Shown here one piece after another: positions 1,399 through 63,210 of a DNA stretch of 64,000 nt (the first letter of the stretch is position 1; each line of letters opens with the position of its first letter). The stretch is taken from contig CM046863.1 of assembly GCA_025617745.1 (NCBI GenBank), positions 3,224,001-3,288,000 of the forward strand. The letters are read 5' to 3'. A program made the translations under genes and the position numbers. Source of the stretch: Heliocidaris erythrogramma. Its lineage: Eukaryota > Echinodermata > Echinoidea > Camarodonta > Echinometridae. The notes under the pieces are model-generated. The model was not told where the DNA came from. It was given only the letters and a program-made list of their open reading frames with translations, and ran no database searches.

Positions 1399-1400
1399 TA

Positions 1401-2588
1401 TATCACCGCGTATTGTTCATCTCCTGCCTCACTGAGCTGATGATCCGTTGACTTCGTCGTATCCAACCGGCTTCGCCGATGTTGCTAGATGCATGTCTTT
1501 CTGCACCTCCTCAAGACGGGTTGGACGGGAATCCTACCCAAGGCCATGTGCCATCTATAATCAAATGAGTCCAAAAGCATTTTCTACTATGTGGTTCCTT
1601 TCACAATTTTTATCGTGCAATAATTCATGGTAAACATAATTATTACAGTTTTTGCGTTGCAATAATTTCTTAGTCACACAAGTCTCTTTGAAAGTTAAAT
1701 CAAGGAACTGGAAGTGGTTCACTTTCTGAAATTATTTCACTTTCCGAAATGGTTACTTTTCACAACATATTTCATGAAATATCATTAACAATTTTCCAAA
1801 ACATATCTTAATTACGCACTTTAACTCAAATATTGATACTGGTTAGAGTGTATAAACTTATTCAAAGTACCAATTTTGTCTCTTTATTACTTTTGATGAT
1901 TTAAAAGGGACAAAGCTAACTCACCAGTGGTGCTTTAAAAAGTACAAAAAAATAACTCACCGGTGGTGCTTGATTTAATGAACCAACATTTTTTGCTCAT
2001 GCGAAATGGCGGTCAACACCCCTTCAGAAAATAACCCGCAGTCAAGTCTACAATACTTCTGACAAACGGCAATTACTTTACTGCCAGTGTTCAATTCAAA
2101 GTACATTCAAAACTGCTGGAGAAGCCCTGCAAAGGCAGGTCTTCCTTCTCTACCTGGTTGGGTGTGTCTGCCCCAATACTCTCTACCACTTGCCTGCTTC
2201 AACCAGAGAGCATAGGCAAGCTTAATTTGCATCTTTTTACACCTGCAATTCTAAATCTGAGTATATACAAAAGAACCCTCCTGACCGAAAGGAATAAACA
2301 ATACACTCACATAAAGCCTATCCTGGGCTGAATAAAATGAGGAATGCACAAAATGCACCTTATCACAAACAATAGCCCTTCCACTTGCACTACATACTCC
2401 ACCAATGGCACAAAAACTCTTCATTCCACTCTTAATCTATCCATCTATATATATATGTATAGATAAAACAAGAGAAAAGAGGAGGAAAGAGGAGAGAAAA
2501 GAGGATAGTAAATACAATCCCATTTCACATGTGACACTCAGTTTCACCTTATTTTTAAATCAGGAAAAGAACATTTCGTAATATATTT
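1401..2588. other. Unassigned AT-rich stretch
   Basis: No gene recognised. It contains a short TA-repeat (about 2448-2458) and a purine-rich GAGGAAAGA tract (about 2468-2508). That tract is 10 bases longer in copy 2, so it is a young variable microsatellite. Confidence 0.5.
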
Positions 2589-2656
2589 CTCTGCCGAGAT
2601 TCGAACTTGCGGTCCTTTCATCGATAGCGCACCAGATTATCCGACTGCGCCACACA
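2589..2656 (-). pseudogene. tRNA-like pseudogene or SINE head
   Basis: On the minus strand TGGCGCAGTCGGATAATCTG resembles a tRNA D-arm/A box. AAGTTCGAATCT about 30 bases later resembles the T-arm/B box. The acceptor stem pairs poorly and the anticodon arm is not clean, so I call it a tRNA-derived remnant and not a working tRNA. Copy 2 counterpart: 53675-53742. Confidence 0.6.
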
Positions 2657-2787
2657 GAACAGCTGCTCAATGGCCTTGCTCGTTTTATCATATCCCTACA
2701 TGAATATTCATGCCGACTAGTCTTGAGAGAATAAACCGTATTACTGGTCATGCGCATGCGTACTGTCATCTCTAAGACCCAAGTCAT

Positions 2788-2832
2788 GAATATTCATATT
2801 GGATAGCCCCAAAGGTACAGGAAAAACGATTT
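2788..2832 (-). repeat. Dispersed motif shared with 50310-50352
   Basis: The block containing GGATAGCCCCAAAGGTACAG, adjoining ATGAATATTCAT, occurs inverted at 50310-50352 (and again in copy 2 near 53880). It is probably the end of an unidentified repeat family. Confidence 0.5.
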
Positions 2833-3034
2833 AACGTCCGGCGAATCGACATGTACGGTACCGGGATATTGTGCAGTGCCAGTAGTTTACGTACGTACCG
2901 GAGATTTCAACAGCTAACGTTAGACTAGTGATAAAATCCAACATTACTTGTTATTTCTTAGATCAGACCTTTCATGGTACAGATACCAATAACATATCTA
3001 GATATATTATTGGTAATATTGAACTGAATTGTAA

Positions 3035-3060
3035 CAGTTAGATCTAAAGAGATCTAACTG
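3035..3060. repeat. Perfect 11-bp-stem hairpin
   Basis: CAGTTAGATCT and AGATCTAACTG are separated by AAAG. No function is evident. Confidence 0.6.
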
Positions 3061-4033
3061 TAGTATTATATAAGTTAGATAGAGGGTCTACATTTAACTT
3101 AACGTAGAGATCCGGATTGATGTACATGTAGTCTATTTAATTCAGATGTAATAATACTTAAATCTCATCCCGGCCGAAAACATCCACATTTACTCAATTA
3201 CAATGTAATTAAATTAGACAAACAGATTAGACCTAAGTTAAATTTAACACTAAGTAACAGTTACATGTGCATGTATGTAGATGTCTACATGAGCTTGGGT
3301 AAGCAAGACATAATTTAATAATTCTTCATTATTATTGATTATATTCCTGATCTCCAAGCAGTCTTTCCTTTAGTGAATAGTTCAATCAATTGATGCTGAC
3401 GTTATACAGCAAATACACCCTATGTTACAAAGGCCAACCACTTGGATTCCGGGGGGGGGGGGGGGGGGGTAATATGACCTGTTCAGCCGAAGTGGCAAAG
3501 ATCTACATGATCTCCACAATGCAACTCATGTTGTTGCTCCATTTTTGAGCTTAATAACGTATTTTTGTTTTACCTTTTAAAAAAATATTCATCAGAAAAT
3601 CCTACTTCAACCCTTGATTATTTGTACATCGCAAAAGTAAACTTGAGTTTTCTAGATGCCTTTATTAACAGCTTAAATGCAAATTTAATATAAATATTAA
3701 TTTGGGCTGCCATTATGTACATTTCAGATTGTGACTCAATGAATTTGTAAAAAGGGTATTTTTATTTAATTTCTTTAGCAGATGGTAAAACGGTTTTCAG
3801 CTTCATGAAATTTCTGTAGATCCCTAACTCTGTCATGAACTTGATTTGATGAAAATGATCCCCATGTCCAATCCATATTAAATACCCTAATCTTCACACG
3901 GTCCTCGTATAATAATTTTAAAACATATTCAACAGTTAGTAATTGCAATCAGTTTTTCCTTTCAGTGAAGAGCTTAAATTAATTGATAAGTAAATTTATC
4001 CTTTCTATGAATTCATTTTTATTTTCGTTTCAG
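3061..4033. other. Unassigned AT-rich stretch
   Basis: No gene recognised. A run of 19 G lies near 3451-3469 and differs in length in copy 2. Confidence 0.5.
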
Positions 4034-4208
4034 TTAAAGAAGTGTCAAAAATGATGTTGAGCCTCCGGACTGGTTATGGGCGGCTCAACCGCATTGGTTC
4101 CAGTGGCAGTGCTCCAATTAAAAGGACGTCAAGGCAGGAGTGGTTGGCAGAAGCTTAGCCTTTCTGGCTCCGCACATAAAGGCCAGCCCATCCATTTCCA
4201 ATTTACAG
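4034..4208 (+). other. Exon-like block, possible degraded LINE RNase H
   Basis: A 175-base GC-richer block is preceded by TTTCGTTTCAG and followed by CAG then GTAAGC, so both sides look like splice sites. One frame reads KEVSKMMLSLRTGYGRLNRI and stays open to a TAG at 4156. The RTGYGRLN part resembles the start of the helix seen in RNase H domains of I-clade LINEs. It may be a decayed LINE piece that gained splice-like flanks by chance, or the end of an unseen gene. Copy 2 preserves it at 55122-55296. Confidence 0.25.
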
Positions 4209-5976
4209 GTAAGCAAACATAATTAAACAAAATTAAATTAATCATTGGTAGGATGGTCACAAATCTGTGATCCTCTGACAAGCAAATTACAAGAAAATAT
4301 ATCACCTCATTTATGTGCCTTTTGGGGTCTTCAATACCGGAGGGGGGGGGGGGGGTTGTTTTCAGCAAAGGAAACATTTTTGTCTGTTTTTAAACTTAAG
4401 GTGTTCAACATTTGGAGACTCTTGCAATATTCGCTTTCAGTTGAATGCAGTTAAATGCAATAATTAACTTTACTTTCATTTGATACATGAAGGAAAGAAA
4501 TTTACTTTTACAACTGAATCTCGGCTTCACATAGGTATTGGGGTAAAAGAGGGCACCAAAAAATGCTGATGACTTTCAAAAAAAGATAATGAATTTGCTT
4601 GTCAGAGAACTGTGGAATTAGAAAAACAACCCAAAATGCTGATGTCCCTTTTTCAGCAAGTTGGAAAATTCAGCAGGTCAGATTATGGCCCCTTCCCTGA
4701 CAAAATCCTGGATCCTGCACACAGAGGGAATGCCCCCCCCCCCCCCCCCCCCCCTCCTCATTCTGATCACGGATTGCTATTATCATCAAAACTCATGTTT
4801 GTATTGATTTAGATGAAACAAGTGCACGAGCAAATACAAAATCGAATTGGTCAGGAAGTACTGGCAGGGATCAAGTAGTCAACACTCTACACACAGAGTC
4901 TAGGCTGGCACACCTGAATGACACATACATGTACTTCACCAGCAATCGTCCTGCAGTCTCACATCCAAATTCATTACTTCAATCATGGAACAAACACTAC
5001 ACCTAATCCTTTATATTTGATGACATAGAGCCTGGAAAAATCTTCACTGTAGAATATATGACTGTTTACCATAGTAACAGACACACACCAGCTAATGTTA
5101 TCAGTTTCCATTAAAAAATTTAAAAAAATAAAAGCTTTTCTTTACATTTGATTAAATATTTGAATCATGATTTCATTGATTGATGACGTATTGCTGTACA
5201 GATTCAATAAATCAGCCTGAATACAGAAGTACCAGTACATCCATAGTAATTGGACTTTATTTAAGCACAATATAATCTACCAAAGAGAAATAATTAAGTC
5301 ATGTGACAACAAATTTGCATTAAAAATAAAATAGATACAATATCAATTGATAAGGAGGAACGTCCTAACCTCAATGAATGTTAAAAAGTTATGAGATAAA
5401 TATGGTTTCATTCGGTCAGTGTGCATTAGCGAGAAAGACTTCATAGATCAACATAAATATATGAACCTCATAACTATATCTCAAGCTATAAATATATTTG
5501 TCATAATCATACATACCAGTATGTACATGTATACACATATATAAAAATAAATGACAAACAATAAAGAAAGAAAGAAATATTTACATGTATGTAAAGATGC
5601 TGCACTGCTAACCTCACATAAGTGTCAGTTGATAAAAAAAATCTGATATTAACAAGAGGTGATATATAAGTTTTATTAATAAAATAAAGTGACATATTCA
5701 TCACAATAGGAACAATAAAACCATTCATAAAATTTGGAATTAAATGTAATCTGCGTTAACACTTATTTTTAAAAAGTAAATCTTAATTTCTACAAACTGA
5801 AATGTTATTCTATTTTAAAATAACATCATGATGTTCTAATCTTGTCAATACTTTTCAATATATTTGACTGATAGTGTTTGTATTTCTAATAATCTAAGGT
5901 ATCAAATTATAGTCTTTTGAAAATGGATTTATTAATTTCTTTTAATCGAGTATTAATGGACATTATCAGTTATATC
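4209..5976. other. Unassigned AT-rich stretch
   Basis: No gene recognised. It contains a G run at about 4340-4354 and a C run at about 4734-4754. The remainder is AT-rich with short, non-conserved open frames. Confidence 0.5.
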
Positions 5977-6599
5977 TTAAAGGGCAATCCAACCTTGGTA
6001 ATAAGATGATTTGTGTGGATGCAGAAAAATAAGAAAAACGGGAAGGTGAAAGTTTGAAACAAATCAGACAAGGACTAAGAATGCTATGGATGTTTGAAAG
6101 ATGAGATCACTACATCTATGCGAATCTCAAATGGGCAATTTGGTGAGTCGATTGTGAAATTTTTGTGGACAACTCACCCGTTTGTCGTACACAAAAATAT
6201 TAATTTGCGTTTTTATTTTTTAAGACGCGTTTACGTTCGGGGGAGTATTCAAAATGTATTGGAGATAGCATATTGTTATAGGTCCTCATGAAAGAAAACG
6301 ATCCAACTGAGTAATACATTTTAGTCATGTTTTGTGTTGGAGCGAATGGGGGAGTTGTCCACAGCTACATCACAGTGACATTACCTATTCGGCCAATTTG
6401 AAATTCCCATAATGTATAATGATTAAAACTTTCAAAAATTCATAACTCTCTTATTGCTTGTCAGATTTCGTTTAAAGATCACATTACAAGAAAATCACAA
6501 ATATGGCAATTAATGTATCACTAGAAACTGGGAAGCTTACAGATGGCAATCGTATAAGTTTTATGTCAACTGCGTATCTGATGATTATAAAAAACGGGG

Positions 6600-7265
6600 T
6601 CTGCTCGCTAGTCATAAGGACCGCTATTCATAAAAAAAAATTATTCATAAGGACCGCTATTCATAATAAGACATAAGGGTTGCTATTCATAAGGGTAATT
6701 ATTCATAAGGATCGCCATTCATAATAAGACATAGGGATCGCTATTCATAATACGGAAAGAGGGTCGCTATTCATAATATCAAAGCAGGGTCGTTAATCAT
6801 AAGGGTCCCTATTCATAATACGAAAACAGGGTCGCTATTCATAAAGGTCGATATTCATAAAGGTCGCTATTCATAAAGGTCAATATTCATAAGGGTCGCT
6901 ATTCATAATCAAAGAAGAGGGTCGCTATTCAAAATCGAAGAAGAGGGTCGCTATTCATAATCGGAGAAGAGGGTCGCTATTCATAATCACAGAAGAGGGT
7001 CGCTATTCATAATCACAGAAGAGGGTCGCTATTCATAATCACAGAAGAGGGTCTCTATTCATAATCAGTGAAGAGGGTCGCTATTCATAATCAGAGAAGA
7101 GGGTCGCTATTCATAATCAGAGAAGAGGGTCGCTATTCATAATCAGAGAAGAGGGTCGCTATTCATAATCGGAGAAGAGGGTCGCTATTCATAATCACAG
7201 AAGAGGGTCGCTATTCATAATCACATAAGAGGGTCGCTATTCATAATCAAAGAAGAGAGTCGTCA
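6600..7265 (+). repeat. Left minisatellite arm, 26-bp units
   Basis: The inner part is a regular tandem of GGGTCGCTATTCATAATC plus NNAGAAGA. The outer part, towards the terminus, is degenerate with shorter GGTCGCTATTCATAA units. Two bases after AATC vary between units (AC, GG, AA, AG, GA) while the rest is nearly constant. There is no spacer, so it is not a CRISPR array. Confidence 0.95.
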
Positions 7266-7477
7266 TTTAAATCAAGTAAGAAAGGGATATGGATGAAGGA
7301 CAACCCAATTAAGGCCCAACGGTACTGTATTTAAGAAAGCTCTATAGAATGCATTTCTGGTTTTTTGTCAAATACATCTATATCCCTATTTTCTAAAATA
7401 GTGAAGTATATTTATCAATGCTCCACACCCTATTGCTTTATCTTTCTTCATTTGTTTTCCCTAACTGTTCTTATGTT
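7266..7477. other. Core of nested element, unassigned
   Basis: AT-rich DNA between the left minisatellite arm and the tRNA-bearing direct repeats. Nothing recognisable. Confidence 0.4.
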
Positions 7478-7547
7478 ATTAAATATCATAATTGATAGGA
7501 CTGAAGTAAATTGAATATATCATAAAGAAATGTGAGAAAATTACAAT

Positions 7548-7617
7548 GCCCCGAACCCAGGACCCTGGATTACATGACCAGTGCTCTACCAACTGAGCTA
7601 TCCGGGCTCCCGGCGAA
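7548..7617 (-). pseudogene. tRNA-Thr(TGT)-like pseudogene lacking part of the T arm
   Basis: On the minus strand GCCCGGATAGCTCAGTTGGT (acceptor and D arm) is followed by an anticodon arm with loop CATGTAA. That loop places TGT at the anticodon position, which would read threonine codons. About 11 bases of the T arm are missing compared with the second unit (GGTTCGGGGC where GGTTCGAATCCCGGTC would be expected). It is not functional. Confidence 0.75.
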
Positions 7618-7859
7618 GCAAAGTAACAATCTCATATATAGCCCCTCTCTTTCCATCGAGCGTAGGGGGTACATCCATACCAGTTCCATGCATACGCTAT
7701 ATAATGGCCTACCAATGAGACAGGTCTTCCCTCTAAAGTCGGGCAAATCCATGCCAACGAATTTCTATAGAGGAAAATTTGAATTTGTAATTAAATATCA
7801 TAATTGATAGGACTGAAGTAAATTGAATATATCATAAAGAAATGTGAGAAAATTACAAT

Positions 7860-7914
7860 GCCCCGACCGGGATTCGAACCCGGGACCCTGGATTACATGA
7901 CCAGTGCTCTACCA
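7860..7914 (-). pseudogene. tRNA-Thr(TGT)-like pseudogene lacking its 5' part
   Basis: It shares the same anticodon arm and has an intact T arm (CGGGTTCGAATCCCG) and 3' acceptor strand. The 5' acceptor strand and the first part of the D arm are deleted (sequence begins at TGGTAGAGCACTGG). It is complementary in damage to the 7548-7617 unit. Confidence 0.75.
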
Positions 7915-8000
7915 TCGAAGCAAAGTAACAATCTCACATATAGCTCCTCTCTTTCCATCGGGCGTAGGGGGTACATCCATACCAATTCCATGCGTTTTCA

Positions 8001-8711
8001 GTATGTTTTCTGTATTTTTCTCTTATTTCTTCCTTTTGCATTTTGTATTTATATTTCTCTTCCAGTTTTCTAGGAGGGTGCGGTTTTTCGAAAAAGAAAC
8101 CTGCCATAAACTGTGAAGTCATTTAAACCTAACTGAGATCTAGGATGCATCCATAGGCGTCAGAATTTGGGGGTGGGGCGATCACCCCCAACAAAAAGGT
8201 GGGGGCAAAACGCATTTTCGACCCCCCCCCCCCTTTTTAGGAAGGCCACCGAAAGGTGATATTTCTTTCAAATCTATGCAGAACATTTGAAAATGCGATT
8301 TTATGTGCTTTAACATAATTATAATGGGGCAAAATATTGAAAAAAGAAACAAAAACAGGGGCGTAACCAGTACTAAGTATGCGGCACGTGCCCCGCAAAT
8401 CAGATGAGGAAAATAATGAAAGAGGAGAAAATAGACAAAGATGGGGCAGAGGAAAAGGAAGAGAAAATAAGGCAATAATTAGACCCTTTTTTTGTTTTGC
8501 TTTCTTTTTGTTTTGTTCAAACGGACCCTGCTCGCCAGCCTCCCCCCCCCCCCCCCCCCCCCCATAACAAGGGCCTGTGCATCTTGGATTTTCTATGTTT
8601 GTTTTGAACTTTATTCAATTCTATCAAATTTATTCACATTTCTTCATACTGTAAAGCATATTGGTTGTTGTATTTAAACAAACCATAGGACCATCTGCTT
8701 TAAGTCCATAA
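8001..8711. other. Homopolymer-rich core sequence, probable hAT-type MITE debris
   Basis: The boundary-like phrases CATAGGCGTCAGAA (about 8152) and CAGGGGCGTAACCAG (about 8356) resemble hAT-type MITE ends. C runs occur at 8222-8233 and 8542-8563. No coding potential is supported. Confidence 0.4.
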
Positions 8712-8920
8712 ACTTTTATCTTGTATATAAATGACTTTTATAGATCATCAAATTTATTGACTTTTATTATGTATGCAGATGACACTAATCTATTTTTTCG
8801 CATAAAAGCCTAGAAACTATATGTAATGTGATTAATTCTGAAGTGGATTCAGTTCCAAAATGGATTAAGGCTAACAAGTTATCACTGAATCTAGAAAAAA
8901 AATTACATGTTATTTGGTAA
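8712..8920 (+). pseudogene. LINE reverse transcriptase palm fragment
   Basis: Frame 1 reads TFILYINDF then MYADDTNLFF, i.e. RT motif C with the catalytic YADD box intact, and stops at a TAG. After a frame change the sequence continues HKSLETICNVINSEV and WIKANKLSLNLEK, which is the usual continuation in CR1/L2/Jockey-like non-LTR retrotransposons. Only about 70 codons survive, with one frameshift and stops. It lies in the core of the nested 4.9-kb element. Copy 2: 59797-60005. Confidence 0.8.
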
Positions 8921-9194
8921 TACATTTTTTACGTGGCAGCCCAAGGGAGGGGGGGGGGGGGGGGTCTCTGTTTTCATTCTCATTTTCATAAAATTAATCT
9001 AATGTAGTATTCACTATTGTTACCTTTTTTATTACGTAATGCACTTTATTTTGCTTGTAATGATCAAAAACGTTTCTGCACTAAGATGTGTTGTCAGTTA
9101 TATTGTATATTATTGATTGCATAATACATATTGTAATATAAATGTACTTTGAAAAATGAAAATGTAATGAAATAAAATCTCAAATCTGAAAAAA
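8921..9194. other. LINE-like tail and unassigned core
   Basis: G run at 8947-8964, then AT-rich sequence ending in GAAATAAAATCTCAAATCTG, which looks like a retroposon 3' tail. It may belong to the RT fragment just upstream. Confidence 0.35.
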
Positions 9195-9321
9195 TCTGAA
9201 ATCCTCTCCGAGGGACTTGGGGTTAATGCCTTACCAAAGGACACGAGTGCATCCTGGTTTCAAACCCGCATCCTTCAGTTACGAGGCCACTGTTCGACCA
9301 CTGAGCTATCTCGCCTTTCTC
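9195..9321 (-). repeat. tRNA-derived SINE, partial
   Basis: On the minus strand GAGATAGCTCAGTGGTCGAA (A box), an anticodon-like loop and GCGGGTTTGAAACC (B box) form a tRNA head. The SINE body follows with GTGTCCTTTGGTAAGGCATT. The tRNA-like head plus body arrangement supports a retroposed SINE; the B box has mutated. Copy 2: 60279-60405. Confidence 0.75.
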
Positions 9322-9535
9322 TGAGGATTATAGACATGATAGTGGCAACACCTACTATACAGCACCCCCCCCCCCCCCGCCACCCGCACACAGGCTATGC
9401 CATTTATGAATTACTTTGACGAAAATTGTCAGTACTATGTGCTTGTACCGGGGCAAGATGGGTCGAATGGCGAAACGTGGTCGGACTGACGGGGGGACAC
9501 AAGCGTAGCCAGGATTTTTCAATATGGGGCGTTTG

Positions 9536-9734
9536 CACTCTAAAAACTCAAATGTTAAATCCACATTTAAAAGGTTGGAGGAGTGACAACATTTTAAAAA
9601 TGGTAAATTAACACTTTTAACATGCTGGATCTAATAGTTTAGAGGTTGGATGCAGCATGTTAAAAGGGTTCATTTACCATTTTGAAAATCTCCAACCTTT
9701 TAAATGTGGATTTAACATTTGAGTTTTTAGAGTG
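9536..9734. mobile_element. Palindromic MITE (CACTCTAAAAACTCAAATG ends)
   Basis: CACTCTAAAAACTCAAATGT at the left is mirrored by CATTTGAGTTTTTAGAGTG at the right. Pairing continues through TTAAATCCACATTTAAAAGG and into the centre, so most of the 199 bases fold back. Copy 2 (60635-60822) is shorter by small indels, mainly in the loop. Confidence 0.85.
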
Positions 9735-10433
9735 TGTGAGCGCGCGAAGCGTGCTAATTTGGTGATGAGCACTCTCTCATTGCGTGCTCCCCAGGGGGGT
9801 GAGTGCAGGGATGGGGAGTTTTCCCCATAGAGTTGTTAGAGGTATGTAACTCTATTGTTTTCCCCCTCCTGCGCGAAGTACGAAATCTCTGACGTTTTAT
9901 AGCAAATCTGAGATAAAGATAATGGCTCGTCGCAATACTGCACTGTATATGTAACAGGGGTGGGGCATGGAGGGGGGGGGGGGGGGGTCCCCTTCCCGCG
10001 CAAAGCTCTGACATTTTGTAGCAAATTTGAGAGAAAGATAAAGAAAGATAAAGGCTCGTAGCAAACAATTCTTTTTAGGCGGAAAGTTATAGGCATAGTT
10101 TGACGCCCAGACTGCTTTACAAATTGTCCCCTTCCCACGCGAAACGCGAAACCTGTGACGTTTTATAGCAAATTTAAAAATAAGATAGCGGCTCGTACAT
10201 GTAGCACCTTCTTTTAGGCGGAAAGTTAGCTCGACACCCGGACTGCTTTAAATTATTGGACGCAATGCTGCACCGTATGTATCAGGGGTGGATGCATGGA
10301 TGGGGAGTTACTTCCCCCTTCCCACGGGAAGCGCGAAAACTTTTATCAAATTTCGTAGCGCCTCTTTAGGCTTTTATCTTTCTCTTCCTCCGCTTCCTCC
10401 GCTTTTTCGCTCTCGCGTTTTTGAAGGGGCTGA
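9735..10433. repeat. Degenerate tandem repeat, units of roughly 170-200 bp
   Basis: Recurring blocks carry a CGCGAAG-type motif, then GACGTTTTATAGCAAATTT, AAGATAAAGGCTCGTAGCA, TTTTAGGCGGAAAGTTA and GCCCAGACTGCTTTA in the same order. They occur near 9880, 10010 and 10150, with partial copies before and after. No protein is indicated. Confidence 0.65.
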
Positions 10434-10633
10434 ATAGGGGGGCATGCCCCCCTTGCCTGCCTGGCTAGGCCAGGGGTGTATTTGTTTCATCGCCCCTCCC
10501 CGTATTGCTTCGACACAGCCGTGGGGTGTCTCCCATCCAATATTATTATTTTTATTATAATCTTTCATATTTGAGTGTTCAACAATGAAAAATCATATTA
10601 CAATATTTTACAAATAATCCTAACCTCTTCTTC
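10434..10633. other. Core of nested element, unassigned
   Basis: Contains the short palindromic stretch CCTGGCTAGGCCAGG near 10459 and AT-rich sequence leading to the right minisatellite arm. Confidence 0.4.
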
Positions 10634-11490
10634 CATTATGAATAGCGACCCTCTTCTCCGATTATGAATAGCGACCCTCTTCTTTGATTATGAATAGCGA
10701 CCATCTTTTGTGATTATGAATAGCGACACTGTTCTTTGATTATGATGAGCGACCCTCATCTTCGATTATGAATAGCGACCCTCTTCTGTGATTATGAATA
10801 GCGACCCTCTACTCCGATTATGAATAGCGACCCTCTTCTCTGATTATGAATAGCGACCCTCTTCTTTGATTATGAATAGCGAACCTCTTCTGTGATTATG
10901 AATAGCGACCCTCTTCGATTATGAATAGCGACCCTCTTCTCCGATTATGAATAGCGACCCTCTTCTCCGATTATGAATAGCGACCCTCTTGTTTGATTAT
11001 GAATAGCGACCCTCTTCTTCGATTATGAATAGCGACCCTCTTCTGTGATTATGAATAGCGACCCTCTTCTCCGATTATGAATAGCGACCCTTATGAATAT
11101 TGACCTTTATGAATAACGACCCTCTTCTCTGATTATGAATAGCGACCCTCTTCTTCGATTATGAGTAGCGACCCTTATGATTAACGACCCCGATTTGGGA
11201 TTATGAATAGCGACCCTGTATCTGTATTATGTATAGCGACCCTTATGACTTATTATGAATAGCGGCCCTTATGAGTAATGACCCTTTTCTTCGATTATGA
11301 ATAGCGACCCTCTTCTCATATTATGAATAGCAATACTTATGAATAATGCTCCTTATGAGTTTATGAATAGTGACCCCCTTTTCGCTTTATGAATAGCGAC
11401 CCTACAGGTATAGGAAATTACACGTTATGACTAGCGGTCCTTATGAGCCACTGATCCTTATGACTAGCGGTCCTTATGACTAGCGAGGTT
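10634..11490 (-). repeat. Right minisatellite arm, inverted 26-bp units
   Basis: Tandem GATTATGAATAGCGACCC units separated by TCTTCTNN. These are the reverse complement of the left arm units, becoming short and degenerate near the terminus. The variable dinucleotide is again present (CC, TT, GT, TC, CT). The order of variants does not mirror the left arm, so the two arms expanded separately. Confidence 0.95.
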
Positions 11491-11503
11491 ACCCCTAAAA
11501 AAC

Positions 11504-12270
11504 AACATAAATAAAAGCTCTTCTAAGCATTTGGAATATCCGAGGATTCGCCAGAAATATAGCGATGTTTTGATGTCGTCACACTAGGGATCGATCCTGC
11601 TTAAGCAGACGACGTCCTATAATGAATGAACGTAATTGAAATGCAATTATTTATCAAATTATAAAGAGTTTGTATATTTAAACATGACCTTTTTCACACC
11701 ATTCTAAAAGGGAAAGTGAAACAGATTCTGATAACTAAAACCGTTTGATTGTAAATACACAGGAGAAGGGTCAATGATCAATGCAATAAACCCCATTTTC
11801 AAATTGAAAAGCCCTCCGAATAATAGCACGGATGGTATTCGTTCCCTCTTGAAACGCCGAACATGCCCCGGTGCAAGCAGCTGAAAATACAATGGCGTCT
11901 TATTTTGTTTACAAGTGACTGATTCCTTTATTTTTTTTAACGCTGCATTTTTCATCAAAATAATACCATACACGAAGTTAAGAGTGAGGCAACAGACTAA
12001 CATTAAGACTGACGCTAGGAGATGACAAAACAGGCACTGAAAAATGTGTAAGATGTTATGGGACATCGTCTGCTTAGACAGGACTGGTCCCTGCTGTGTC
12101 GTCACACATCTCATCAGCGTTCGAGGAGCTCTTCAGCTGCTATATCGGGGGCTGTATTTTACCGTTTTATAATTGATAATAATCATTACTTCAAATGTTT
12201 CCAAGCGTTGAATTTGGATAACCTTGTTTAATTTATGCCATCTATGCAATTAAAAGTATTAAGCCAATAT
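11504..12270. mobile_element. Right part of the TTAA-flanked element
   Basis: Colinear with the inverted copy at 39848-40640. It contains two related phrases, TTAAGCAGACGACGTCC (about 11602) and GTCTAAGCAGACGATGTCCC on the reverse strand (about 12060). A 136-codon frame here is not conserved in the 39848 relative, so I do not call it a gene. Confidence 0.65.
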
Positions 12271-12810: not shown

Positions 12811-13655
12811 TTAACTTGACTCCAGGATTTTGTCCTGCCATTCAACTCTTCCAGCCGGAGAGCCGAAGTAGTCTCGGATTCGGTCTCGCTGAGCCTTTGC
12901 AGACATGGTGCAGTTTGTTGACCGACCTACTCTTTCCACTGGCAGTGCACCGTCAGCATGCCAGACCCCAGGAACAACTCGATGGGATACTGGATTCTCT
13001 GTGTCAAGGTATCCTGCTGGAGCATAGACCATGGAAGCAATCTTACGTGCACTTAAATAATTATGGAGCACGCAGGTACAAAGGACTATCTTTGTGACCT
13101 TTTCTGGTTCCAGGGCTATTACAGTTAATAGTACTCGGAAACGATTGGCCAAAATACCAAAGGCCATTTCAAAAACGCGGCGGGTGCGAAATAGTCTGTA
13201 GTTATAAACTCTCTCCTCCTGGGTCATGTTACGACGTGCGTATGGCTTCATGAGATCGTTCCGAAGGGGAAAGGCCTCGTCTGCCACAATGCAATATGGG
13301 AATGGCGTGCAGGTGTTGGGATAAATCTGCTCTGCTTCCGGAATGTTTAGAGCCTGTGAGTTCAAACCATCATACAGGGAACTTTGGGGGAAAACGCCAC
13401 CATCGAGACTCTGCCATTAGTGCCAACATCCACGTGGAGGAAATTGTAATTGGCATCTACGAGGCCGTGGAGTACTACACTAAATGTATGTTTATAATTG
13501 AAATACTTAGACCCGCTGTTGCCGGGTGGCCTGATTCTAATGTGTTTACCGTCGAGTGCCCCCAAGCAGTTAGGGAAGTTCCATCTCTCACTGAACATCT
13601 TGGAAATCTTTCTCCATTCATCCGCAGTATTTGGGACCCGCAACAACAGACACAA
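12811..13655 (-). pseudogene. PIF/Harbinger transposase (HARBI1-type nuclease), one frameshift
   Basis: Two overlapping frames join at about 13398, where one base appears lost (after GTCTC, before GATGGTGGC). The joined protein has TADEWRKI, WNFPNCLGALDGKHIRIR (first Asp), DVGTNGRVS, CIVADEAFPLRNDLMKPYAR (second Asp) and RTRRVFEMAFGILANRFR (Glu). There are 36 residues between the second Asp and the Glu, as in Harbinger nucleases. It ends DKILESS and a TAA. The N-terminal exon is absent and sequence upstream of 13655 is no longer transposase. In this family the nuclease works with a Myb/MADF partner, part of which lies at 13723. Copy 2 has lost the whole region. Confidence 0.85.
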
Positions 13656-13954: not shown

Positions 13955-15496
13955 CAAAATAAAGATAATCCTGAAATTCAAAATTCAAGCAGAACTAGCT
14001 TCTGCTAGAATTCAATGTCTTGATAGCTGTAGCATGTCAAGTGAGGCCTAAATATTTCGACAAATTCCAGTTGAGTGAAGACTCTCTTTAATAGCTTTGA
14101 CTCCCCGGCAAAGTAGGAATATAATTTTGTGTTGTAATGACTGGTCCAGAATACTTCAATGGATGAAGAAAGATCTGGGAAACATTTCAAATTGAATAAA
14201 CTTGGGCAATTCATAAGAAAGATGTGAGGGGAAGTTGTGAGGAGTTGTGAGGAGGAATTTCCCTATTCATGTGAGTAAAGAAATTGGTTTCTCCCTCCCT
14301 TTTCTCAAATCATTTAATTTGTCAGTAAAAGTATGCTGGTTTCTTGCTCAGTTGTAAGATTAAGCAGAACTTTCTTTTTTAACAATTCCTCTTGTGCTTT
14401 TACTTTTGTTACAACAAGGCATTTTGGGACCAACTTTGACATGAAAAGAAACAATAAATAAGATAGATGAAACAAGTAATTAAATAAATTTAAATTTATG
14501 ATAAAATGAATCCTTTCAAACATGGTTATAATTGCACAATAATTATGGAACAAGTAGTTAACGCACAGAATACGGGAACCGGGTCGCTCCTGTATTAAGC
14601 CTATGAGAGTTAAAGAATTCAGTAGTCAAGGGGTTAAAAGTGTCGAATCCTATACCAAGTTTGGATAAAATTGTACATTGTCATTCTGAAAGAAAAAGTT
14701 ATCACCCTTGTTTCAAGAGCTTGATTAACGAAGAAGGTGTATTGCAAAATGACAGCGATATCGTAAGCAATTGTATGTATATGAAGATGTCAAACTTCCG
14801 CTTCTCGAAGTTAGTACACTGTGTTCTCAACATGTTCAACTTGTCATAATATTGTTTTGTTTTGCTTTGTATTGTTTTTATTTTGAGCCATTTTCATGAT
14901 TACAGATGTTTAAAGTTATGGTTTCATTTAAAATGATTTTAAATTCACAATTAAAATCTTATTATTTTTTAAATCTTCATTTTTCATTGCAATACTATGA
15001 CGCAATGAATGCTATTTTTAATGAAAAGATAATATTGTTTATGCTTGTATGTGATCCTAGATTATCCTGGTATTGCTATGGTTACTTTGAAAACAATTTT
15101 TTAGTGCTGATTTCTTTCTGAGAGGTCGTAAAAGGTTGCAGCACTCTCATGTATGATGCACATGAAACTGCAATAAGGGTTTATGTATGGAAATATCATT
15201 ATATCAATAATTCTGATTCAACTATGTTACTTCTTGTATGCAAATTAATTTATTCAAATTTTGTTGGTATTTTGCAATCTTTCATTATGATTACCTCATT
15301 TGATATGGTTGTGTGAAAGACTTAATAAATAAGTCAAATTTACCTTCAAGTATGTTGACTGCAGGCCTTGGTAAATCGCATTACATGTCTCCAGAACGAT
15401 GCCAGAAATAGTGTTTCTCCTACTCGATATAGATATGAGAAGATTCTGAAGCTTTCCCTATGAGCATGTTAAAGAATAATGATAATATTGATAATA
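13955..15496. other. Unassigned AT-rich stretch
   Basis: No gene recognised. Bases from 14291 are repeated in copy 2 up to its end at 64000. Confidence 0.5.
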
Positions 15497-22812: not shown

Positions 22813-22920
22813 CACGTGACCCCCTTGTGCGCCCCTCCCCTGTCTAAAATTTAAACCTAAACATCACTATTCTGATGTCAGTTTGGATTTTTTTTAAATA
22901 TTCGAACCCTCTGACCCCCT

Positions 22921-23160
22921 GTAGAGCCCACAAATGTAAAAATCAACCACAAATGTAAAAATAACCACAAATGTAAAAACATTGCACCCACAAATGTTAA
23001 AATAACCACAAATGTCATAACATGTCAACCACAAGTGTAAAAATAACTACAAATGTAACAAAATTCGCCCACAAATTTAAAAATCTTTTTAACCACAAAT
23101 GTCAAAACATGTCGCCTACAAATGTAAAAACTCATTGCTTCCATAATGCACCTCTGTAAG
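22921..23160 (+). repeat. Left outer arm: CCACAAATGTAAAAA units
   Basis: About ten irregular units (15-28 bases apart), ending CATTGCTTCCATAATGCACC. It matches 26050-26289 inverted. Confidence 0.92.
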
Positions 23161-23830: not shown

Positions 23831-23846
23831 CTACGACTACGGACTA

Positions 23847-26035: not shown

Positions 26036-26049
26036 CCATAATAACTTAT

Positions 26050-39847: not shown

Positions 39848-40750
39848 TTTAAATATTGGCTTAATACTTATTATTGCATAGATGGCATAAATTAAACAAG
39901 GTTATCCAAATTCAACGCTTGGAAACATTTGAAGTAATGATTATTATCAATTATAAAACGGTAAAATACAGCCCCCGATATAGCAGCTGAAGAGCTCCTC
40001 GAACGCTGCTGAGATATGTGACGACACACCATGGACCAGTCCTGTCTAAGCAGACGATGTCCCATAACATCTTACACATTTTTCAGAGCCTATTTTGTCA
40101 TCTCCTCTTCACTTATTTCTCTTCCTTCACTAGCGTCAGTCTTAATGTTAGTCTGTTGCCTCACTCTTAACTTCGTGTATGGTATTATTTTGATGAAAAA
40201 TGCAGCGTTAAAAAAATAAAGGAATCAGTCACTTGTAAACAAAATAAGACGCCATTGTATTTTCAGCTGCTTGCACCGGCGCATGTTCGGCGTTTCAAGA
40301 GGGAACGAATACCATCCTGCTATTATTCGGAGGGCTTTTCAATTTGAAAGTGGGGTTTATTTCATTGATCATTGACCCTTCTCCTGTGTATTTACAATCA
40401 AACGGTTTTAGCTATCAGAATCAGTTTCACTTTCCCTTTGTAATGGTGTGAAATAAGGTCATGTTTAAATACACCAAACTCTTTATAATTTGATAAATAA
40501 TTGCATTGCAATTACGTTCATTCATTATAGGACGTCGTCTGCTTAAGCAGGATCGATCCCTTGTGTGACGACATCAAAACATCGCTATATTTCTGGCGAA
40601 TCCTCGGATATTCCAGATGCTGAGAAGAGCTTTTATTTGTGTTGTTTTTATAATCATCAGATACGCAGTTGACATAAAACTTATACGATTGCCATCTGTA
40701 AGCTTCCCAGTTTCTAGTGATACATTAATTGCCATATTTGTGATTTTCTT
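39848..40750 (-). mobile_element. Older, unoccupied relative of the TTAA-flanked element
   Basis: It is the reverse complement of 11504-12270 joined directly to 6487-6594. The junction at about 40650 (GTTGTTTTTATAATCATCAG) is the empty target site of the 4.9-kb inverted-array element. It is more diverged and has lost both TTAA ends, so it is a fragment of an old copy. Confidence 0.93.
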
Positions 40751-55296: not shown

Positions 55297-57687
55297 GTAA
55301 GCAAACATAATTAAACAAAATTAAATTAATCATTGGTAGGATGGTCACAAATCTGTGATCCTCTGACAAGCAAATTACAAGAAAATATATCACCTCATTT
55401 ATGTGCCTTTTGGGGTCTTCAATACCGGAGGGGGGGGGGGGGGTTGTTTTCAGCAAAGGAAACATTTTTGTCTGTTTTTAAACTTAAGGTGTTCAACATT
55501 TGGAGACTCTTGCAATATTCGCTTTCAGTTGAATGCAGTTAAATGCAATAATTAACTTTACTTTCATTTGATACATGAAGGAAAGAAATTTACTTTTACA
55601 ACTGAATCTCGGCTTCACATAGGTATTGGGGTAAAAGAGGGCACCAAAAAATGCTGATGACTTTCAAAAAAAGATAATGAATTTGCTTGTCAGAGAACTG
55701 TGGAATTAGAAAAACAACCCAAAATGCTGATGTCCCTTTTTCAGCAAGTTGGAAAATTCAGCAGGTCAGATTATGGCCCCTTCCCTGACAAAATCCTGGA
55801 TCCTGCACACAGAGGGAATGCCCCCCCCCCCCCCCCCCCCCCTCCTCATTCTGATCACGGATTGCTATTATCATCAAAACTCATGTTTGTATTGATTTAG
55901 ATGAAACAAGTGCACGAGCAAATACAAAATCGAATTGGTCAGGAAGTACTGGCAGGGATCAAGTAGTCAACACTCTACACACAGAGTCTAGGCTGGCACA
56001 CCTGAATGACACATACATGTACTTCACCAGCAATCGTCCTGCAGTCTCACATCCAAATTCATTACTTCAATCATGGAACAAACACTACACCTAATCCTTT
56101 ATATTTGATGACATAGAGCCTGGAAAAATCTTCACTGTAGAATATATGACTGTTTACCATAGTAACAGACACACACCAGCTAATGTTATCAGTTTCCATT
56201 AAAAAATTTAAAAAAATAAAAGCTTTTCTTTACATTTGATTAAATATTTGAATCATGATTTCATTGATTGATGACGTATTGCTGTACAGATTCAATAAAT
56301 CAGCCTGAATACAGAAGTACCAGTACATCCATAGTAATTGGACTTTATTTAAGCACAATATAATCTACCAAAGAGAAATAATTAAGTCATGTGACAACAA
56401 ATTTGCATTAAAAATAAAATAGATACAATATCAATTGATAAGGAGGAACGTCCTAACCTCAATGAATGTTAAAAAGTTATGAGATAAATATGGTTTCATT
56501 CGGTCAGTGTGCATTAGCGAGAAAGACTTCATAGATCAACATAAATATATGAACCTCATAACTATATCTCAAGCTATAAATATATTTGTCATAATCATAC
56601 ATACCAGTATGTACATGTATACACATATATAAAAATAAATGACAAACAATAAAGAAAGAAAGAAATATTTACATGTATGTAAAGATGCTGCACTGCTAAC
56701 CTCACATAAGTGTCAGTTGATAAAAAAAATCTGATATTAACAAGAGGTGATATATAAGTTTTATTAATAAAATAAAGTGACATATTCATCACAATAGGAA
56801 CAATAAAACCATTCATAAAATTTGGAATTAAATGTAATCTGCGTTAACACTTATTTTTAAAAAGTAAATCTTAATTTCTACAAACTGAAATGTTATTCTA
56901 TTTTAAAATAACATCATGATGTTCTAATCTTGTCAATACTTTTCAATATATTTGACTGATAGTGTTTGTATTTCTAATAATCTAAGGTATCAAATTATAG
57001 TCTTTTGAAAATGGATTTATTAATTTCTTTTAATCGAGTATTAATGGACATTATCAGTTATATCTTAAAGGGCAATCCAACCTTGGTAATAAGATGATTT
57101 GTGTGGATGCAGAAAAATAAGAAAAACGGGAAGGTGAAAGTTTGAAACAAATCAGACAAGGACTAAGAATGCTATGGATGTTTGAAAGATGAGATCACTA
57201 CATCTATGCGAATCTCAAATGGGCAATTTGGTGAGTCGATTGTGAAATTTTTGTGGACAACTCACCCGTTTGTCGTACACAAAAATATTAATTTGCGTTT
57301 TTATTTTTTAAGACGCGTTTACGTTCGGGGGAGTATTCAAAATGTATTGGAGATAGCATATTGTTATAGGTCCTCATGAAAGAAAACGATCCAACTGAGT
57401 AATACATTTTAGTCATGTTTTGTGTTGGAGCGAATGGGGGAGTTGTCCACAGCTACATCACAGTGACATTACCTATTCGGCCAATTTGAAATTCCCATAA
57501 TGTATAATGATTAAAACTTTCAAAAATTCATAACTCTCTTATTGCTTGTCAGATTTCGTTTAAAGATCACATTACAAGAAAATCACAAATATGGCAATTA
57601 ATGTATCACTAGAAACTGGGAAGCTTACAGATGGCAATCGTATAAGTTTTATGTCAACTGCGTATCTGATGATTATAAAAAACGGGG

Positions 57688-58353
57688 TCTGCTCGCTAGT
57701 CATAAGGACCGCTATTCATAAAAAAAAATTATTCATAAGGACCGCTATTCATAATAAGACATAAGGGTTGCTATTCATAAGGGTAATTATTCATAAGGAT
57801 CGCCATTCATAATAAGACATAGGGATCGCTATTCATAATACGGAAAGAGGGTCGCTATTCATAATATCAAAGCAGGGTCGTTAATCATAAGGGTCCCTAT
57901 TCATAATACGAAAACAGGGTCGCTATTCATAAAGGTCGATATTCATAAAGGTCGCTATTCATAAAGGTCAATATTCATAAGGGTCGCTATTCATAATCAA
58001 AGAAGAGGGTCGCTATTCAAAATCGAAGAAGAGGGTCGCTATTCATAATCGGAGAAGAGGGTCGCTATTCATAATCACAGAAGAGGGTCGCTATTCATAA
58101 TCACAGAAGAGGGTCGCTATTCATAATCACAGAAGAGGGTCTCTATTCATAATCAGTGAAGAGGGTCGCTATTCATAATCAGAGAAGAGGGTCGCTATTC
58201 ATAATCAGAGAAGAGGGTCGCTATTCATAATCAGAGAAGAGGGTCGCTATTCATAATCGGAGAAGAGGGTCGCTATTCATAATCACAGAAGAGGGTCGCT
58301 ATTCATAATCACATAAGAGGGTCGCTATTCATAATCAAAGAAGAGAGTCGTCA
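57688..58353 (+). repeat. Left minisatellite arm (copy 2)
   Basis: Counterpart of 6600-7265 with the same order of unit variants. Confidence 0.95.
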
Positions 58354-58635
58354 TTTAAATCAAGTAAGAAAGGGATATGGATGAAGGACAACCCAATTAA
58401 GGCCCAACGGTACTGTATTTAAGAAAGCTCTATAGAATGCATTTCTGGTTTTTTGTCAAATACATCTATATCCCTATTTTCTAAAATAGTGAAGTATATT
58501 TATCAATGCTCCACACCCTATTGCTTTATCTTTCTTCATTTGTTTTCCCTAACTGTTCTTATGTTATTAAATATCATAATTGATAGGACTGAAGTAAATT
58601 GAATATATCATAAAGAAATGTGAGAAAATTACAAT

Positions 58636-58705
58636 GCCCCGAACCCAGGACCCTGGATTACATGACCAGTGCTCTACCAACTGAGCTATCCGGGCTCCCG
58701 GCGAA
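58636..58705 (-). pseudogene. tRNA-Thr(TGT)-like pseudogene, T arm damaged (copy 2)
   Basis: Counterpart of 7548-7617. Confidence 0.75.
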
Positions 58706-58947
58706 GCAAAGTAACAATCTCATATATAGCCCCTCTCTTTCCATCGAGCGTAGGGGGTACATCCATACCAGTTCCATGCATACGCTATATAATGGCCTAC
58801 CAATGAGACAGGTCTTCCCTCTAAAGTCGGGCAAATCCATGCCAACGAATTTCTATAGAGGAAAATTTGAATTTGTAATTAAATATCATAATTGATAGGA
58901 TTGAAGTAAATTGAATATATCATAAAGAAATGTGAGAAAATTACAAT

Positions 58948-59002
58948 GCCCCGACCGGGATTCGAACCCGGGACCCTGGATTACATGACCAGTGCTCTAC
59001 CA
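58948..59002 (-). pseudogene. tRNA-Thr(TGT)-like pseudogene, 5' part lost (copy 2)
   Basis: Counterpart of 7860-7914. Confidence 0.75.
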
Positions 59003-59796
59003 TCGAAGCAAAGTAACAATCTCACATATAGCTCCTCTCTTTCCATCGGGCGTAGGGGGTACATCCATACCAATTCCATGCGTTTTCAGTATGTTTTCAG
59101 TATTTTTCTCTTATTTCTTCCTTTTGCATTTTGTATTTATATTTCTCTTCCAGTTTTCTAGAAGGGTGCGGTTTTTCGAAAAAGAAACCTGCCATAAACT
59201 GTGAAGTCATTTAAACCTAACTGAGATCTAGGATGCGTCCATAGGCGTCAGAAGTTGGGGGTGGGGCGATCACCCCCAACAAAAAGGTGGGGGCAAAACG
59301 CATTTTCGACCCCCCCCCCCCCTTTTTAGGAAGGCCACCGAAAGGTGATATTTCTTTCAAATCTATGCAGAACATTTGAAAATGCGATTTTATGTGCTTT
59401 AACATAATTATAATGGGGCAAAATATTGAAAAAAGAAACAAAAACAGGGGCGTAACCAGTACTAAGTATGCGGCACGTGCCCCGCAAATCAGATGAGGAA
59501 AATAATGAAAGAGGAGAAAATAGACAAAGATGGGGCAGAGGAAAAGGAAGAGAAAATAAGGCAATAATTAGACCCTTTTTTTGTTTTGCTTTCTTTTTGT
59601 TTTGTTCAAACGGACCCTGCTCGCCAGCCCCCCCCCCCCCCCCCCCCCATAACAAGGGCCTGTGCATCTTGGATTTTCTATGTTTGTTTTGAACTTTATT
59701 CAATTCTATCAAATTTATTCACATTTCTTCATACTGTAAAGCATATTGGTTGTTGTATTTAAACAAACCATAGGACCATCTGCTTTAAGTCCATAA

Positions 59797-60005
59797 ACTT
59801 TTATCTTGTATATAAATGACTTTTATAGATCATCAAATTTATTGACTTTTATTATGTATGCAGATGACACTAATCTATTTTTTCGCATAAAAGCCTAGAA
59901 ACTATATGTAATGTGATTAATTCTGAAGTGGATTCAGTTCCAAAATGGATTAAGGCTAACAAGTTATCACTGAATCTAGAAAAAAAATTACATGTTATTT
60001 GGTAA
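59797..60005 (+). pseudogene. LINE reverse transcriptase palm fragment (copy 2)
   Basis: Counterpart of 8712-8920, with YADD and the same frameshift. Confidence 0.8.
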
Positions 60006-60278
60006 TACATTTTTTACGTGGCAGCCCAAGGGAGGGGGGGGGGGGGGGTCTCTGTTTTCATTCTCATTTTCATAAAATTAATCTAATGTAGTATTCACTA
60101 TTGTTACCTTTTTTATTACGTAATGCACTTTATTTTGCTTGTAATGATCAAAAACGTTTCTGCACTAAGATGTGTTGTCAGTTATATTGTATATTATTGA
60201 TTGCATAATACATATTGTAATATAAATGTACTTTGAAAAATGAAAATGTAATGAAATAAAATCTCAAATCTGAAAAAA

Positions 60279-60405
60279 TCTGAAATCCTCTCCGAGGGAC
60301 TTGGGGTTAATGCCTTACCAAAGGACACGAGTGCATCCTGGTTTCAAACCCGCATCCTTCAGTTACGAGGCCACTGTTCGACCACTGAGCTATCTCGCCT
60401 TTCTC
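60279..60405 (-). repeat. tRNA-derived SINE, partial (copy 2)
   Basis: Counterpart of 9195-9321. Confidence 0.75.
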
Positions 60406-60634
60406 TGAGGATTATAGACATGATAGTGGCAACACCTACTATACAGCACCCCCCCCCCCCGCCACCCGCACACAGGCTATGCCATTTATGAATTACTTTG
60501 ACGAAAATTGTCAGTACTATGTGCTTGTACCGGGGCAAGATGGGTCGAATGGCGAAACGTGGTCGGACTGACGGGGGGGGGGGGGGGGGGGGGGGGAACA
60601 AGTGTAGCCAGGATTTTTCAATATGGGGCGTTTG

Positions 60635-60822
60635 CACTCTAAAAACTCAAATGTTAAATCCACATTTAAAAGGGAGGAGTGACAACATTTTAAAAATGGT
60701 AAATTAACACTTTTAACATGCTGGATCTAAAGGTTGGATGCAGCATGTTAAAAGTGTTCATTTACCATTTTTAAAATCTCCAACCTTTTAAATGTGGATT
60801 TAACATTTGAGTTTTTAGAGTG
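60635..60822. mobile_element. Palindromic MITE (copy 2)
   Basis: Counterpart of 9536-9734. Small deletions near the left arm and in the loop (GGATCTAAAGGTTGG) make it 11 bases shorter. Confidence 0.85.
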
Positions 60823-61721
60823 TGTGAGCGCGCGAAGCGTGCTAATTTGGTGATGAGCACTCTCTCATTGCGTGCTCCCCAGGGGGGTGAGTGCAGGGAT
60901 GGGGAGTTTTCCCCATAGAGTTGTTAGAGGTATGTAACTCTATTGTTTTCCCCCTCCTGCGCGAAGTACGAAATCTCTGACGTTTTATAGCAAATCTGAG
61001 ATAAAGATAATGGCTCGTCGCAATACTGCACTGTATATGTAACAGGGGTGGGGCATGGAGGGGGGGGGGGGGGGTCCCCTTCCCGCGCAAAGCTCTGACA
61101 TTTTGTAGCAAATTTGAGAGAAAGATAAAGAAAGATAAAGGCTCGTAGCAAACAATTCTTTTTAGGCGGAAAGTTATAGGCATAGTTTGACGCCCAGACT
61201 GCTTTACAAATTGTCCCCTTCCCACGCGAAACGCGAAACCTGTGACGTTTTATAGCAAATTTAAAAATAAGATAGCGGCTCGTACATGTAGCACCTTCTT
61301 TTAGGCGGAAAGTTAGCTCGACACCCGGACTGCTTTAAATTATTGGACGCAATGCTGCACCGTATGTATCAGGGGTGGATGCATGGATGGGGAGTTACTT
61401 CCCCCTTCCCACGGGAAGCGCGAAAACTTTTATCAAATTTCGTAGCGCCTCTTTAGGCTTTTATCTTTCTCTTCCTCCGCTTCCTCCGCTTTTTCGCTCT
61501 CGCGTTTTTTAAGGGGCTGAATAGGGGGGCATGCCCCCCCTTGCCTGCCTGGCTAGGCCAGGGGTGTATTTGTTTCATCGCCCCTCCCCGTATTGCTTCG
61601 ACACAGCCGTGGGGTGTCTCCCATCCAATATTATTATTTTTATTATAATCTTTCATATTTGAGTGTTCAACAATGAAAAATCATATTACAATATTTTACA
61701 AATAATCCTAACCTCTTCTTC
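60823..61721. repeat. Degenerate tandem repeat and core (copy 2)
   Basis: Counterpart of 9735-10633. It differs mainly in homopolymer length. Confidence 0.65.
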
Positions 61722-62580
61722 CATTATGAATAGCGACCCTCTTCTCCGATTATGAATAGCGACCCTCTTCTTTGATTATGAATAGCGACCCTCTTTTGTG
61801 ATTATGAATAGCGACACTGTTCTTTGATTATGATGAGCGACCCTCATCTCCGATTATGAATAGCGACCCTCTTCTGTGATTATGAATAGCGACCCTCTAC
61901 TCCGATTATGAATAGCGACCCTCTTCTCTGATTATGAATAGCGACCCTCTTCTTTGATTATGAATAGCGACCCTCTTCTGTGATTATGAATAGCGACCCT
62001 CTTCTTCGATTATGAATAGCGACCCTCTTCTCCGATTATGAATAGCGACCCTCTTCTCCGATTATGAATAGCGACCCTCTTGTTTGATTATGAATAGCGA
62101 CCCTCTTCTTCGATTATGAATAGCGACCCTCTTCTGTGATTATGAATAGCGACCCTCTTCTCCGATTATGAATAGCGACCCTTATGAATATTGACCTTTA
62201 TGAATAACGACCCTCTTCTCTGATTATGAATAGCGACCCTCTTCTTCGATTATGAGTAGCGACCCTTATGATTAACGACCCCGATTTGGGATTATGAATA
62301 GCGACCCTGTATCTGTATTATGTATAGCGACCCTTATGACTTATTATGAATAGCGGCCCTTATGAGTAATGACCCTTTTCTTCGATTATGAATAGCGACC
62401 CTCTTCTCATATTATGAATAGCAATACTTATGAATAATGCTCCTTATGAGTTTATGAATAGTGACCCCCTTTTCGCTTTATGAATAGCGACCCTACAGGT
62501 ATAGGAAATTACACGTTATGACTAGCGGTCCTTATGAGCCACTGATCCTTATGACTAGCGGTCCTTATGACTAGCGAGGT
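61722..62580 (-). repeat. Right minisatellite arm (copy 2)
   Basis: Counterpart of 10634-11490. Several units differ by single bases, and one unit missing TCT in copy 1 (near 10914) is complete here. Confidence 0.95.
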
Positions 62581-63210
62581 TACCCTAAAAAACAACATAA
62601 ATAAAAGCTCTTCTAAGCATTTGGAATATCCGAGGATTCGCCAGAAATATAGCGATGTTTTGATGTCGTCACACTAGGGATCGATCCTGCTTAAGCAGAC
62701 GACGTCCTATAATGAATGAACGTAATTGAAATGCAATTATTTATCAAATTATAAAGAGTTTGTATATTTAAACATGACCTTTTTCACACCATTCTAAAAG
62801 GGAAAGTGAAACAGATTCTGATAACTAAAACCGTTTGATTGTAAATACACAGGAGAAGGGTCAATGATCAATGCAATAAACCCCATTTTCAAATTGAAAA
62901 GCCCTCCGAATAATAGCACGGATGGTATTCGTTCCCTCTTGAAACGCCGAACATGCCCCGGTGCAAGCAGCTGAAAATACAATGGCGTCTTATTTTGTTT
63001 ACAAGTGACTGATTCCTTTATTTTTTTTAACGCTGCATTTTTCATCAAAATAATACCATACACGAAGTTAAGAGTGAGGCAACAGACTAACATTAAGACT
63101 GACGCTAGGAGATGACAAAACAGGCACTGAAAAATGTGTAAGATGTTATGGGACATCGTCTGCTTAGACAGGACTGGTCCCTGCTGTGTCGTCACACATC
63201 TCATCAGCGT

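Follow-up and report, generated by a model that had tools for sequence, protein, structure and literature searches.

Within the 64,000-nucleotide stretch of Heliocidaris erythrogramma DNA analysed here (contig CM046863.1, positions 3,224,001 to 3,288,000; hereafter the window), positions 6596-11495 are occupied by a DNA element of 4,900 bp that is flanked on both sides by the exact 8-bp duplication TAAAAAAC. Its tips are inverted: the left one reads GGGGTCTGCTCGCTAGTCATAAGG and the right one, on the opposite strand, GGGGTAACCTCGCTAGTCATAAGG, both beginning GGGGT. The first 16-bp unit starts 8 bp inside the left tip, and each end carries an array of short tandem units facing the other (29 units over 653 bp on the left, 35 units over 862 bp on the right, spaced mainly at 26 and 16 bp), so that the element displays the long inverted arms, built largely of tandem repeats, by which foldback elements are recognised. 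An earlier note on this DNA had described a transposable unit with an exact 8-bp duplication, inverted GGGGT termini and opposed arrays of about 26-bp units; all three are borne out, and the 16-bp spacing occurs as well. We conclude that this is very probably a foldback element, a non-autonomous DNA transposon that moves by cut-and-paste.

The site without its insertion can be read in a related repeat of the same window, close to where the note had placed it (about 40650). Of the element's two flanks, the left one agrees with 40750-40645 at 106 of 106 bp and the right one with 40649-39850 at 93.7%, while the joined flanks match the related repeat near 40645 over 610 bp at 96.7%, the element being absent there. 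Since the relative represents an empty site, the element was most simply inserted after its host repeat had diverged from this relative. The features of the element, of the empty site and of a second copy in the window are collected in Table 1.

Table 1. Positions of the foldback element, its parts, the empty target site and the second copy within the window
Feature	Position	Strand	Remarks
Left target-site duplication TAAAAAAC, 8 bp	6588..6595	none	Exact copy of the right one
Left terminus GGGGTCTGCTCGCTAGTCATAAGGACCGCTATTCATA	6596..6632	+	Genome-wide 37-mer matches
Left arm, 29 units, core GGGTCGCTATTCATAA	6596..7262	+	Outer units mainly 16-bp, inner mainly 26-bp
Interior	7263..10623	none	About 3.4 kb; no coding sequence recognised
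Right arm, 35 units	10624..11495	-	Orientation opposite to the left arm
Right terminus GGGGTAACCTCGCTAGTCATAAGGACCGCTAGTCATA (read on the - strand)	11459..11495	-	Genome-wide 37-mer matches
Right target-site duplication TAAAAAAC	11496..11503	none	Exact copy of the left one
Empty target site TATAAAAACAAC in related repeat	40640..40656	-	Single copy of the duplication, one A fewer
Left duplication TAAAAAAC of second copy	57676..57683	none	
Second element copy, flanks duplicated too	57684..62585	+	Identity to the first copy 98.9%, in the left flank 99.8%
Right duplication TAAAAAAC of second copy	62586..62593	none	

The ends of the element recur throughout the host genome (1.064 Gb in 26 contigs), which also holds a bindin domain match (E 2.1e-68) seen in none of 14 control genomes; as bindin occurs in sea urchins but in sea stars too, this match supports an echinoderm host and makes a sea urchin likely. 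At up to three mismatches the left 37-mer has 2,328 matches (1,145 + 1,183) and the right 37-mer 3,134 (1,563 + 1,571). These counts overlap and are not additive, because a second right-end type (AAC), departing from the left pattern at three bases only, fits both patterns. A chance origin of the matches was rejected, since the reversed patterns gave none in any of the seven pattern searches, those for the two 37-mers included. Among the exact matches listed, a facing and equally exact right end lies within 20 kb of 64 out of 90 left ends, at a median span of 4,510 bp, and left/right pairs on the same strand within that distance number only four. Nineteen loci of 10 kb (L010-L028) were fetched, every one picked through an exact left-end match. 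Both ends lie inside the stretch in 17 of the 19: fourteen of these copies have exact 8-bp duplications, two have duplications with one mismatch and one has non-matching flanks, and the duplications differ among the copies at other loci. The family thereby displays the target-site duplications and dispersed copies of foldback elements. The tips of the 17 two-ended copies read GGGGTCTG on the left and GGGGTAAC on the right, save one right tip with GGGGGAAC; bases 6-8 are CTG on the left and AAC on the right in all 17, and this consistent difference makes the two ends distinguishable.

The arrays follow the ends. The junction of the 26-bp unit has 19,556 matches in the genome at up to two mismatches, with none for the reversed control. 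We surveyed the first 100 exact junction places, which form 21 clusters in the first 22.8 Mb of contig C1. At 14 of the 21 clusters a correctly oriented end or subterminal mark is listed no more than 1 kb to the outside, and neighbouring clusters within 12 kb form seven facing pairs, no diverging pair and no same-strand pair. Arrays lacking the ends, which the earlier note had named as the observation that would take them out of a mobile unit, did not occur in this sample, in which the other seven clusters count neither way because the lists hold exact matches only. The facing ends, the 8-bp duplications and the arrays near end marks together argue that the block moves and carries its arrays, as had been proposed.

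The repeat units themselves are conserved unevenly. Across 18 elements, 600 units of 26 bp were compared with their majority sequence: deviations per site amount to 2.8% in the 16-bp core and 24% in the 10-bp spacer. The search seed does not include the first four bases of the core, and there the figure is 5.6%. Gaps of 52 bp between units do not occur; at the spacer's rate of deviation a third of the units would escape the seed and leave such gaps. Core and spacer share one duplication history, and the contrast between them therefore points to constraint on the core, which suggests that the constrained 16-bp core is an amplified predicted transposase-binding site.

Copies of the family differ in arm length (14-30 units on the left, 20-35 on the right) and their interiors vary in length and content. 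A common interior is shared by 15 of the fetched copies (median identity 94.8% over 105 pairs), which points to a recent common source. The window copy covers 33% of the reference interior of this main subfamily at about 87% identity and is thus a divergent or mosaic member. The variable, mostly non-coding middle and the arm-only copies of foldback elements are both found here, copies of 260 and 679 bp having been seen. Genome matches number 650 for the right-arm motif of the long copies and, at up to one mismatch, 914 for the second right-end type; the one pair with this end type that was closed by position spans 263 bp. The left tip GGGGTCCG has 158 genome matches. Ends departing from the consensus after base 24 occur at 51 places, with the GGGGTAAC tip at 44 and GGGGTCCG at four. 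Three of these four were read and proved to be copies of 2,049, 679 and 260 bp: the 679-bp copy has an exact 8-bp duplication, the 260-bp copy has seven matching flank bases beside a damaged tip, and the duplication of the 2,049-bp copy is blurred by an A run. These three short copies indicate that elements ranging in length from about 260 bp to several kb make use of similar tips. At the other extreme, a copy of about 11.2 kb by position (contig C1, about 9543240-9554489) has a GGGGTCCG left tip, the right-arm motif and an array at each end.

What could be the source of the transposase moving these elements? Open reading frames (ORFs) of at least 110 amino acids were listed in 18 elements, and four representative ORFs, all from related copies, were scanned against Pfam. 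No transposase was recognised among the listed ORFs or the four scanned ones, in agreement with the note, which had seen none. Matches to a STING membrane segment (E 0.00053) and to RCDG1 (E 0.024) were set aside as below the family cut-offs, and where tRNA-like stretches had been suspected by eye in the interior, ARAGORN found no tRNA gene in 6500-11600. Transposase domains are present elsewhere in the host genome, with 52 matches for the Merlin IS1595 domain, 31 for MULE (Mutator-like elements), 29 for P and five for KDZ. The autonomous relative sharing the termini that the note had called for was sought by reading beside such matches; in this partial search, in which a search for hAT was not run, no transposase sharing the ends was found. 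The ends are absent at the one KDZ (Zisupton) locus read, which holds two of the five matches, and a core-like match in L046 is a coincidence inside an unrelated inverted repeat. Ends of hAT elements begin CA or TA and are G-rich, with an 8-bp duplication; the ends here begin GGGGT directly after the duplication and do not fit that pattern. That the superfamily is not clear from the termini, as the note had remarked, still holds: GG ends and 8-bp duplications fit Merlin, and Mutator is possible. Our guess places Merlin first, Mutator a close second and any other source behind both, as an unlikely one.

A Merlin (IS1595) transposase is accordingly a tentative choice. Merlin elements are described as having 5'-GG ends, duplications of 8 or 9 bp and, in several families, internal tandem repeats (PMC8101967), and the element here agrees in all three. 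Several of the 52 IS1595-domain matches have identical scores and open frames. Against this, neither ends nor arrays are present at the 13 loci read among the 52 (2.5-3.5 kb to one side of each), so that no IS1595-type transposase with these ends was met there. Transposase places on contigs C1-C4 were also compared by position with the listed marks only, which were left GGGGTCCG ends (C1-C4), right ends of the second type (C1-C3) and motifs of the right arm (C1-C2). Among the listed matches, two Merlin places on C1, which may be copies of one another, lie at a distance of 6-9 kb from right ends. This proximity could be accidental, and we do not count it as a link, because in the one closed pair that right-end type bounds the 263-bp copy.

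A Mutator-like transposase (MULE/Phantom), as in Tm1 of root-knot nematodes, is possible but somewhat doubtful. The published account of Tm1 describes composite inverted arms of tandem repeats of about 14 bp, asymmetric terminal motifs, several copy classes including short ones, and a Phantom-like transposase (PMC3169594); apart from the transposase and the length of the repeat unit, the family here shares these traits. The 8-bp duplications fall within the 8-11 bp given for MULEs (PMC6446971). On the other hand, Tm1 has 9-bp duplications and some of its copies encode the Phantom-like transposase (PMC3169594), no such transposase was found here, and the ends are absent at the one locus read of the 31 MULE matches.

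A transposase of the P superfamily, as in Galileo of Drosophila, is improbable. Nine matches in the host, all equal in score, belong to one P-type family, and eight of these have open frames of 869 amino acids, which suggests that this family is young; its places include C1:78463571, C3:8273743 and C7:17676387. However, the ends of the superfamily are usually said to begin CA, and the one P locus read of 29 matches is without the ends of our element. Galileo is itself foldback-like, and the THAP domain of its transposase is reported to bind sites within the repeats of the arms (PMC3688188). Long, internally repetitive arms with extra transposase-binding sites are thus common to both, although in the present family the sites are predicted ones; Galileo differs in its P-superfamily transposase, its 7-bp duplications and, in one subfamily, its repeats of about 210 bp.

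Could the copies have been dispersed without transposition? The second copy in the window lies in a duplication of 12 kb together with its flanks (window 1-12120 recurs at 51077-63210 at 99.4% identity), and segmental duplication does explain that copy. As an account of the whole family it is very improbable, because elsewhere in the genome the fetched copies carry 8-bp duplications of other sequence. Both duplicates carry the element with the same TAAAAAAC, so the element is older than the 12-kb duplication; the right tip of the second copy appears to have lost one C. The duplication continues at the end of the window, where 63210-64000 equals 14290-15080, and it may reflect either a genuine tandem duplication or the joining of two haplotypes in one contig. 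The segment 12121-14289, found in the first duplicate only, probably stems from the insertion of a transposon or from a deletion; it contains a DDE_Tnp_4 ORF (12811-13365), which we take to be of Harbinger type. Least probable of all, to the point of being negligible, is the notion that two independent arrays were inverted by accident, or one array by rearrangement, with no mobile unit involved: array length does change between copies as in ordinary minisatellites, but fixed tips at both ends, exact duplications in 14 of 17 copies (two more with one mismatch), the empty site and thousands of dispersed termini speak against it.

Several observations do weigh against a non-autonomous foldback transposon. 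Mobility in trans is deduced from structure alone, because no transposase sharing the ends was found. Picking loci by exact left ends favours intact copies. L010 has an eroded right end with its last bases gone, L013 has no partner end in its 10-kb stretch, and L014, one of the 17 two-ended copies, has unrelated flanks. The flanks of L014 are as expected of a chimeric copy produced by exchange between elements, and chimeric Galileo copies with non-matching flanks have been reported (PMC3573991). Seven of the 21 array clusters lack a listed end mark, the lists holding exact matches only. The conservation of the core, finally, could partly reflect the origin of the 26-bp unit and not selection.

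What could be the mechanism of mobility for a non-autonomous foldback transposon of this form? A transposase supplied in trans would recognise the GGGGT-CTCGCTAGTCATAAGG tips and may also recognise the repeated cores along each arm. The whole block would be excised and then inserted with an 8-bp staggered cut, the arrays travelling as its ends, and one transposase may move both the long copies and the short relatives. The 16-bp core would have been multiplied by unequal exchange or slippage, and the variation in arm length between copies is the pattern expected of these processes. We tentatively propose a further step: the minisatellite may be no passenger at all but a multiplied recognition core, starting 8 bp inside the tip and conserved while the spacer drifts, so that selection for capture by a scarce transposase might have enlarged a short element, a few hundred bp long, into a foldback of 4-5 kb that has put facing arrays into hundreds of loci of a single genome.

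Foldback copies with differing array lengths constitute a large natural series in one genome of 26 contigs. Such a series could test whether longer arrays of the putative binding core raise the mobility of an element, and whether dispersed minisatellites in inverted orientation come in large part from transposons. Foldback-like elements such as Galileo are reported to promote inversions, which makes the family a candidate source of host rearrangement.

The window contains other repetitive features. A second, unrelated foldback-like unit at 22920-26290 has inverted arms of 257 bp (93% identical) with CCACAAATGTAAAAA-type repeats, inner inverted arrays of TTACCAATTGGTCTAA-type repeats at 23463-23666 and 25547-25962, and C-rich flanks in which no clear duplication is readable. 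DDE_3 transposase ORFs, presumably of Tc1/mariner type, lie at 16405-17052 and 690-1154. Several copies of a unit of about 1.2-2 kb, 86-96% identical and with palindromic TTAGGTGATCTGTCATTTGACAGATCACCTCTTAATTTCGTCAGAATTTTC between them, occupy 27016-36659, and an unread run (X in translation) falls within 36606-37241.

The nearest named relatives of the family are the TU elements of Strongylocentrotus purpuratus, with which it has long terminal inverted repeats and, probably, a sea urchin host in common. TU elements, attributed to Liebermann et al. (1983), reportedly have outer arms of tandem repeats, 8-bp duplications and variable middles, and their outer units are said to measure about 15 bp. 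The tandem-repeat arms, 8-bp duplications and variable middles are all present here as well, against units of 16 and 26 bp; the likeness is one of reported features. Drosophila FB is a foldback like the present element, but with a different host and unit. Foldback elements have been described in Drosophila, rye, Arabidopsis, a midge and, from 1983 on, a sea urchin (PMC4079207), and foldback-like elements in nematodes (PMC3169594). Tetris of D. virilis is described with long inverted arms of tandem repeats, a variable non-coding middle and duplications of 8-10 bp, all of which are shared here; in that account, too, no autonomous copy was found, and the Tetris arm repeats are a source of satellite DNA, establishing in print that satellite units can come from foldback arms (PMC4079207). 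It differs in its host and in its repeat, TIR-220, the repeat here being a 16-bp one that starts 8 bp inside the tip. With foldbacks reported elsewhere and the arms of Tetris already published as a satellite source, the kind of element is a known one; what the present family adds is its very large number of copies, a repeat that begins near the tip and a clear contrast between core and spacer.

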